From Porphyromonas gingivalis ATCC 33277 (GTDB taxonomy: Bacteria; Bacteroidota; Bacteroidia; Bacteroidales; Porphyromonadaceae): 64,000 bases of DNA. The notes below the pieces were generated by a model, which did no database searches, had not been told where the DNA came from, and saw only the letters and a list, made by a program, of their open reading frames with translations. The position numbers and the translations under genes were made by a program. Shown here in pieces: positions 26,529 to 28,156 of this stretch. The stretch covers positions 1,743,501 to 1,807,500 of the forward strand of contig NC_010729.1 in the NCBI RefSeq assembly GCF_000010505.1, in the 5' to 3' direction. Every line of letters begins with the position of its first letter. The stretch's first letter is position 1.

Positions 26529-26559
26529 CAAATTTAGTGACATTTTCTAATTCGCCAAA
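26529..26559 (-). promoter_or_regulatory. Promoter of the tRNA-Tyr/tRNA-Thr/tuf operon
   Basis: Minus-strand -33 TTTG (26556-26559), 19-base spacer, -7 TAAATTTG (26529-26536): a full match to the Bacteroidota sigma-ABfr consensus. Start expected near 26522, about 74 bases before the tRNA-Tyr 5' end. Confidence 0.85.
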
Positions 26560-26587: not shown

Positions 26588-26884
26588 CTATTTTCTCTGT
26601 TCTTTCCTTTTTTCGATCTGTCTTTTCAGTGCATCGACTGTCAGATCAATAGCTTCCTCAAAGGTGTCTGCTATCTTTTCCGCGAACAAGTCGTCGCCGG
26701 GGATATAGAGCCTGATAGATGCTTCTTTGTTTTGTACGGTCTCAGGCTTGACGAGCTTGAGGACGACTTCGGCTCCCGTTATTCCATCGGACAAGCGATT
26801 CAGCTTGGATATTTTCTTCTGTACAAAATCTTTCAGTTGGTCGGTAGCATCGAAATGCAGAGCCTGGATTCTTACATCTGTCAT
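26588..26884 (-). CDS. hpf: Hibernation promoting factor (internal start within the fusion)
   Basis: 98 residues if translation begins at the internal ATG at 26884. This length and beta-alpha fold match short HPF (YhbH/RaiA family), which binds the 30S decoding site in stationary phase and promotes ribosome dimers or inactivation. AAGAAGAAACGACC precedes the ATG, an acceptable A-rich initiation region for Bacteroidota. Listed separately because it is the functionally expected product; the two entries overlap by design. Confidence 0.65.
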   Translation of the reverse strand: MTDVRIQALHFDATDQLKDFVQKKISKLNRLSDGITGAEVVLKLVKPETVQNKEASIRLYIPGDDLFAEKIADTFEEAIDLTVDALKRQIEKRKEQRK

Positions 26885-27793
26885 GGTCGTTTCTTCTTTT
26901 TTTGCCCTTGGATGAGCGTTATACATCTGTCTAAGTTGTTCGAACGAAATATGCGTGTATTGCACCGTCGTAGAAAGGCTGTCGTGCCCTAAAAGTTCTT
27001 TGACCGACATCAGATCTGCTCCGTGGTTGAGCATTTCGGTGGCGAAGCTGTGTCTCAGAACATGCGGACTCCTCTTGGTCAGGTGCGGTACGTTTGCCAA
27101 TGCCGTACGAACTATCTTGTAGACCACTTCACCTGTCAGTGGTCTGCCATCCAAAGAAACGAAAAAAAAATCAGATTTCCCTACTTTTTCTTCACGAATA
27201 TTCCGATAGTTGTCTATCATATCTTGCAGACGTTTTCCGAAAGGTACTATTCGCTCTTTATTCCTTTTGCCGATGATACGTATGCAGCCGGCCTTGTCTT
27301 CTACCGCGTTGTCTTTGAGAGTGGCTATTTCGGAACGCCGCAAACCCACTTCATACAGTGTTTCCAGAATCAGTCTGTCCCGTACGGCCTCGAAATCATC
27401 TTCACGGATGGGCTTATTCAGCACTTTTTCCATTTCATCGTTCGGGACGAAAACAGGCAGTGGTCTCTCTTTCTTCGGCCCCCTCAGCATTCGGACAGGA
27501 CTTTGCCCAATAAGCCCGATTTTGACCATGTATTTGTAAAAGCTTTTCAGCGCGCTCAGTCTGCGCTGAACGGAAGAACTTTTTTGTCCGGCTTCCATTA
27601 AAGAGAAGAGCCAAGCGCGCGCGACATCCTTGTCGCGTTCGCTTGGCTCGAATACTTCTCCCGTGTGTTCACTGAAGAAAGCGGCATAGCGATTCAAATC
27701 TTGTGCATAGTCACAAACGGTTCGTTCTGACGCGTGAACTTCGTAGCGTAGATAATAGAGGAATCTTTCGATGGTGTCGGGTGTTTCATTCAT
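26588..27793 (-). CDS. XerC-like tyrosine recombinase fused in frame to hibernation promoting factor
   Basis: One continuous 401-codon frame. Residues 1-300 are a XerC/D-type recombinase: SAM-like core-binding domain, then the catalytic domain with R152 (GLRRSE), K176, H244/R247 (HVLRHS), H270 (LLGHDS) and Y279 (YTHIS), so all catalytic residues are present. From M304 on the sequence is a short HPF/RaiA protein (TDVRIQALHFDATDQLKDFVQKKISKL...GDDLFAEKIADTFEEAIDLTVDALKRQIEK). In Bacteroides relatives these are usually two adjacent genes. M304 has an A/G-rich stretch AAAGAAGAAACGACC before it, so free HPF may also be made by internal initiation. No frameshift is needed; whether the full fusion protein accumulates is unknown. 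Confidence 0.9.
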   Translation of the reverse strand: MNETPDTIERFLYYLRYEVHASERTVCDYAQDLNRYAAFFSEHTGEVFEPSERDKDVARAWLFSLMEAGQKSSSVQRRLSALKSFYKYMVKIGLIGQSPVRMLRGPKKERPLPVFVPNDEMEKVLNKPIREDDFEAVRDRLILETLYEVGLRRSEIATLKDNAVEDKAGCIRIIGKRNKERIVPFGKRLQDMIDNYRNIREEKVGKSDFFFVSLDGRPLTGEVVYKIVRTALANVPHLTKRSPHVLRHSFATEMLNHGADLMSVKELLGHDSLSTTVQYTHISFEQLRQMYNAHPRAKKEETTMTDVRIQALHFDATDQLKDFVQKKISKLNRLSDGITGAEVVLKLVKPETVQNKEASIRLYIPGDDLFAEKIADTFEEAIDLTVDALKRQIEKRKEQRK

Positions 27794-27869: not shown

Positions 27870-28061
27870 TTATTCTTCGGCAACCTGAAGCTGCTTCATG
27901 TAGATGGCTTTTTGCATCTTCTTGCGCTTGGCCACCGAGGGCTTTTCAAAAGCCTGACGAGCACGCAATTCGCGTACTGCTCCGGTTTTTTCAAACTTTC
28001 TTTTGAAGCGTTTCAGTGCTCTTTCGATGTTCTCGCCTTCTTTAACTGGAACTACGATCAT
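27870..28061 (-). CDS. rpsU: 30S ribosomal protein S21
   Basis: 63 residues with the S21 signature (VPVKEGENIERALKRFKRKFEKTGAVRELRARQAFEKPS) and a basic C-terminus. S21 helps mRNA engagement; in Bacteroidota it is implicated in sequestering the anti-Shine-Dalgarno end of 16S rRNA. The gene has a canonical promoter 65 bases upstream and precedes the xerC::hpf fusion by 76 bases. Confidence 0.97.
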   Translation of the reverse strand: MIVVPVKEGENIERALKRFKRKFEKTGAVRELRARQAFEKPSVAKRKKMQKAIYMKQLQVAEE

Positions 28062-28125: not shown

Positions 28126-28156
28126 CAAAGTTAGAAATACTTTGTTGATTGCCAAA
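28126..28156 (-). promoter_or_regulatory. Promoter of rpsU
   Basis: Minus-strand TTTG (28153-28156), 19-base spacer and TAACTTTG (28126-28133): consensus -33 and -7. Predicted leader is about 60 bases. Confidence 0.85.

Follow-up and report, generated by a model that had tools for sequence, protein, structure and literature searches.

A probable nested hpf gene within the xerC reading frame of Porphyromonas gingivalis and its relatives

The locus and its fused reading frame

The DNA analysed here (hereafter, the window) is a stretch of 64,000 nucleotides from contig NC_010729.1 of Porphyromonas gingivalis ATCC 33277, and all coordinates are positions within it. On its minus strand, the gene for a XerC recombinase and the gene for the ribosome hibernation factor HPF occupy one open frame (Table 1). 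A preliminary description, made from the sequence alone, had read this as an in-frame fusion without an intervening stop codon, had considered all catalytic residues of the recombinase to be present and had placed the initial methionine of HPF at 26884. Each of these observations was borne out: there is one open frame at 26588-27793, both domains were matched within its 401 residues, and the HPF methionine is codon 304.

Table 1. Features of the rpsU-xerC-hpf locus, in order of transcription, and corresponding promoter-like sites in the sister genus.
Feature	Position	Strand	Remarks
TAACTTTG, with TTTG ~20 nt upstream	28126-28133	-	5' of rpsU; canonical Bacteroidota promoter form
rpsU (S21)	27870..28061	-	Upstream neighbour; ancestral order rpsU-xerC-hpf
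xerC-hpf fused ORF	26588..27793	-	401 aa; ATG start; without internal stop
XerC part, residues 1-297	26903..27793	-	Ends ...AHPRA; delimited by TIGR02224 match and ancestral stop position
Candidate -33 element, GTAG	27181..27184	-	21 nt upstream of -7 box; GTTG/TTTG in several relatives; weak
Proposed -7 box of hpf promoter, TTTCTTTG	27152..27159	-	Family form T[A/T]nCTTTG; ~275 nt upstream of hpf ATG
Synonymous-constraint block around internal start	26867..26917	-	Codons 293-309; A-rich, unstructured
Linker KKEETT	26885..26902	-	18 nt; sequence variable; 15/18/21 nt in fused species
hpf, HPF/RaiA short type	26588..26884	-	98 aa and stop codon; single HPF copy in genome
Internal ATG of hpf	26882..26884	-	Codon 304; invariant in fused species (family 21/21; sporadic fusions 4/4)
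TAG stop codon of fused ORF	26590-26588	-
Putative intragenic near-consensus promoter, sister-genus loci			L031, L043, L062, L050, L051, L038, L042, L044, L046, L039, L040

The recombinase match covered residues 9–299 of the frame and the whole of the NCBIfam XerC profile (TIGR02224, positions 1–295 of 295; E = 6e-96). Its score of 321.4 bits was just under the curated cut-off of 335.15 and above that obtained with the XerD profile (238.6 bits). The catalytic residues R152, K176, H244, R247, H270 and Y279 were all present, and were invariant across the 21 fused species. A second Xer match in the genome (L002) scored highest with TIGR02225 (329.0 bits; cut-off 329.6) and is best assigned to XerD, so that the partner recombinase is found in the same genome. 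The HPF (S30AE) domain was complete at residues 307–401 (PF02482, E = 8e-22) and exceeded the curated cut-offs of both PF02482 (78.2; cut-off 23.7) and TIGR00741 (44.7; cut-off 40.9). The source genome is complete, as one contig of 2,354,886 bp, and this was its single HPF copy. In the AlphaFold model the HPF part had a pLDDT of 88 and a beta-alpha-beta-beta-beta-alpha fold, close to known HPF structures (Z = 16.8 to 4hei and 16.1 to 6h4n), while pLDDT was below 50 in the linker region (residues 294–305).

The fused gene sits between rpsU and a tRNA-Tyr/tRNA-Thr/tuf cluster. In strain W83, rpsU and tuf are numbered PG0385 and PG0387, and in ATCC 33277 they are PGN_1580 and PGN_1578 (PMC4236598, PMC4222909, PMC6994654). 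Since this leaves a single number between them in each strain, the fused frame should correspond to PG0386 and PGN_1579. In the literature covered, no paper was found on PG0386/PGN_1579, XerC-HPF fusions or 9I5V. Judging from its form, TAACTTTG is likely to be the promoter of an rpsU-xerC-hpf transcript. Just past the hpf stop codon, TAAATTTG with an upstream TTTG (26529-26536, minus strand) precedes tRNA-Tyr, tRNA-Thr and tuf, and is a likely separate promoter for the tRNA-tuf unit. Two homopolymer runs within the P. gingivalis frame, A7 at 26897-26903 and T9 at 27162-27170 (minus strand), are possible slippage sites that are not kept across the genus. Programmed slippage at A7, which lies before the hpf start and could release free XerC, was rejected as a general mechanism because A7 is not conserved in the genus.

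Distribution of the fusion and loss of the xerC stop codon

The family sample comprised 37 genomes, each with one HPF gene, and was scored as 25 species of Porphyromonas and 12 of its sister genus. The preliminary description had implied that the fusion was specific to P. gingivalis, which proved incorrect. The same frame was open in 18 of the 25 Porphyromonas species, among them two close relatives (97% and 83% identity) and 15 further members, and in 3 of the 12 species of the sister genus; in all of these it holds the sole HPF gene. The remaining Porphyromonas species had either split but neighbouring xerC and hpf genes (three species: G017, G001, G024) or hpf elsewhere in the genome (four: G012, G015, G004, G022). 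In three split relatives (L023, L024, L044) the xerC TGA is located at the hpf start or overlaps it, which suggests translational coupling of the two genes there.

The two genes had been described as normally separate neighbours in Bacteroidota, and this was upheld outside the genus, where 56 of 56 named neighbour pairs were separate and none was fused. Fusion outside the family appears to be rare, with at least four independent cases among ~388 genomes of the order. On a tree of XerC plus HPF, in which some inner nodes were weakly supported, every deep branch of Porphyromonas included fused lineages; fusion is therefore most simply regarded as ancestral in the genus and lost in one clade. A further copy was found in the PDB. 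Chain 14 of entry 9i5v, named 'Ribosome-associated translation inhibitor RaiA', has a 401-residue sequence, as listed in the entry, that matches the fused frame end to end, with a few substitutions relative to ATCC 33277 and an identical linker. Entry 9i5v was absent from the structural matches, which carries no weight in either direction. The bS21 protein of the entry differs from the ATCC 33277 rpsU product by one substitution; hence, the entry most probably represents the ribosome of another P. gingivalis strain.

In most relatives, xerC ends in ...AHPRA and a stop codon, and the hpf ATG follows within a few codons, often in the same frame; the ancestral stop after HPRA was seen in G043, G042, G054 and G051. 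In Porphyromonas, the former stop position is occupied by AAA, CAA, TCA, ATA or AGA, with 5–7 codons then leading to the hpf ATG. Sporadic fusions had GAA or AAA at this position and an intact short spacer downstream. This comparison indicates that a stop-to-sense change is the step required for fusion.

The linker sequence was not conserved among fused species. When neutral evolution of the linker was simulated on the tree, with branches scaled by factors of 1–4 (observed dS being ~4–10 times protein distance in most close pairs), ~18–23 of 25 species remained stop-free, and the simulation gave no sign of selection for the fusion protein itself. A run of 5–6 codons seldom meets a stop, and would be stop-free by chance in about 70–90% of species; the open linker is therefore uninformative on selection, and was rejected as proof that the fusion is selected. 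Fused species had linkers of 15, 18 or 21 nt, and in one split pair the length was 17 nt. When the length changes were placed on the XerC plus HPF tree by manual parsimony, about five of six were multiples of three and one was a change by one, an outcome expected at ~2% if the frames were free. The relative frames of non-fused xerC/hpf pairs were mixed (21:22:13). Under a free frame, it would be mildly unexpected that almost no frame-shifting indels occurred within the genus.

The internal start codon and putative promoter of hpf

None of the other internal methionine codons of the P. gingivalis frame shared the invariance of the hpf ATG. In simulations, an unconstrained ATG evolving at the protein rate or above was never kept by all 18 species (0 of 4000 cases); with the rate halved, all 18 kept it in 2 of 4000. 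The block of codons around the hpf ATG (Table 1) ranked, with one other, highest for synonymous constraint within the frame. The 50 nt around the hpf ATG were weakly folded, such that on average only 6% of windows from the same gene were equally open, and this ATG was less folded than the mean of other methionine codons in 16/16 representatives (Wilcoxon, P = 3e-5). The 18 nt upstream of it were A-rich (mean rank = 0.94).

The second block of synonymous constraint comprised codons 208–219, within xerC, where a T-rich stretch is followed, at an invariant position, by T[A/T]nCTTTG. The paralogue XerD, used as a control in the same 12 species, had no comparable block (maximum ratio 1.68 vs 2.87). 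The box was present in all 21 Porphyromonas species that keep hpf downstream of xerC, in fused and split arrangements alike, and was the sole such site in xerC for 15 of 16 representatives. Given the codon usage and amino acids of each species, the combined chance of the box over the 16 representatives was ~1e-26, a figure that treats species as independent and so overstates the case. The promoter of the primary sigma factor in Bacteroidota has a -7 element TAnnTTTG and a -33 element TTTG (PMC7366714). TAnnTTTG occurred exactly in 8 of the 21 species and as a one-base variant in the others, including P. gingivalis, where TTTCTTTG differs from it at one position. The -33 position, at 21 nt in the genus against an expected spacing of ~19–21 nt, was NTNG-like and weak, and a transcript begun just after the -7 box would have a long leader (~260 nt). 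TAnnTTTG was also matched elsewhere in xerC of Bacteroidota, at -160 to -190 and at ~-60, but these matches were discounted as promoter evidence because they are codons of the peptides RHTFAT and HTTFE and are driven by the protein.

Species in which hpf has moved provide natural controls. The box was absent from xerC in all four Porphyromonas species with a relocated hpf, at the DNA level and mostly also at the protein level, and each relocated gene had TA(A/C)CTTTG 84–103 nt before its ATG. Across the family, five members with hpf away from xerC (L047, L041, L052, L058, L035) had a promoter-like box 84–103 nt upstream of hpf. In the sister genus, TATATTTG was found inside xerC, 317–353 nt before hpf, in 11/11 species with hpf downstream. 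Most of these had a clear TTTG at ~-33, giving the form TTTG-N19-TATATTTG. This site coincided with the top block of synonymous constraint in the sister genus and differs in position from that of Porphyromonas. In the one sister-genus species where hpf had relocated, TATATTTG was lost from xerC (GAG TAC CTG), and the new hpf had TATATTTG at -99. The sites were lost together with hpf on two independent occasions, and are most likely DNA elements serving hpf.

Interpretation and comparison with known systems

Taken together, the comparisons make it quite probable that the locus is a nested in-frame gene pair, with XerC-HPF produced from long transcripts and free HPF from an internal promoter and start. 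The xerC stop, which lay a few codons ahead of the hpf start, would have disappeared in the ancestor of Porphyromonas, causing xerC to read into the sole hpf. Longer transcripts, probably driven by the rpsU promoter, would yield XerC-HPF when translated from the xerC initiation codon, with the HPF tail flexibly tethered to the recombinase. The promoter within xerC would provide a shorter mRNA, on which ribosomes may begin at the retained hpf ATG in its open, A-rich context; conservation of both elements points to these steps. The free HPF so produced would be the main ribosome-binding hibernation factor, while an HPF tail on scarce XerC may simply be tolerated. Of the two products that the preliminary description had offered as alternatives, internal initiation of HPF is favoured by sequence comparison; given the frame, any translation of xerC would yield the tailed recombinase, with no sign of selection for the tail.

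It is rather likely that loss of the stop was a neutral accident, HPF being expressed independently and the fused polypeptide being either processed or an inconsequential by-product. This is a sub-case of the nested gene pair, differing solely on whether the tail matters. The simulated number of open-linker species approximates that observed and sporadic fusions have arisen elsewhere from in-frame neighbours, both as a neutral accident would predict, but so few frame-shifting indels within the genus would be slightly surprising. That scarcity, set against the mixed frames of non-fused pairs, is instead what might be expected were the fusion protein itself the selected product, with the recombinase docked on or silenced by ribosomes and dimer resolution coupled to hibernation. 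Persistence of the in-frame state through the genus, and the intact state of the catalytic residues and HPF fold, agree with selection also. However, it is considered unlikely, given that the linker sequence varies, that a stop-free linker is to be expected by chance, that hpf retains its own start and promoter, and that some congeners have split the pair or moved hpf away, which shows the fusion to be dispensable. Selection for the fusion could be combined with the nested promoter and start, such that these supply free HPF while XerC-HPF operates as a two-domain protein, its tail docking the recombinase on idle ribosomes (or blocking it) and tying dimer resolution to translational state; this is quite unlikely. 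Any function of the HPF tail on XerC is speculative, and recombination and hibernation are unlikely, on present evidence, to be linked by regulation.

It is very improbable that HPF is made only as a fusion, with the conserved ATG as a relic. The continuous frame would suit such a case, as would the RaiA sequence listed for the P. gingivalis ribosome, which is the 401-aa frame; yet simulation indicated that an idle ATG would have decayed, the start region shows synonymous constraint and open structure, and the promoter motif tracks hpf. The invariant ATG, the synonymous constraint, the open A-rich start region and the hpf-tracking promoter together strongly favour separate expression of HPF over expression by fusion alone. 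Finally, the A7 and T9 runs within the gene might be thought to have led to a sequencing or assembly error that removed the xerC stop, and the preliminary description had left room for such an error, or for a stop in the linker of another strain. This can practically be dismissed: the second strain (9i5v) has an identical open linker in a frame of 401 residues, which excludes sequencing error, and the two close species and 15 others of the genus with the same frame refute it as well.

If a nested gene pair is accepted, the annotation of Porphyromonas is corrected, in that its only hibernation factor lies concealed within an apparent recombinase frame. Knock-outs or expression data directed at the function of either XerC or HPF would confound each other. 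The locus would also offer a clear example, from comparison, of a promoter and start inside one gene being retained for a downstream gene after loss of the upstream stop, with relocated genes as controls that lose the element. Were the fusion protein functional after all, it would represent an unexpected tie between chromosome maintenance and ribosome hibernation.

The locus resembles the rpsU-xerC-hpf neighbourhood of Bacteroidota in its genes, their order and the spacing of a few codons, and xerC and hpf often share a frame there too; the difference is that other members keep the stop after ...HPRA, whereas Porphyromonas has lost it and joined the frames. The recombinase part is like other XerC proteins in matching the TIGR02224 profile over its whole length, in its catalytic residues and in the presence of a XerD paralogue, but has a C-terminal HPF domain and scores 321 bits against a cut-off of 335. 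The HPF part agrees with short HPF/RaiA (YfiA) factors (PF02482, TIGR00741) in sequence, start residue and fold (Z = 16.8 to Vibrio cholerae HPF; 16.1 to Escherichia coli HPF on the hibernating ribosome); however, it is encoded in the 3' part of a frame that opens with a recombinase and can be preceded by up to 303 residues. Known N-terminal extensions of HPF are far shorter, with residue ranges of 31–129 in Mycobacterium smegmatis MPY and 74–176 in spinach pY. Internal promoters and starts from which short C-terminal products arise in longer genes likewise generate two nested products from one frame, and internal transcription starts account for 21% of those in Bacteroides thetaiotaomicron (PMC7366714). 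In Porphyromonas, by contrast, the nested product would come from a gene that once stood apart, until the stop barrier was lost.
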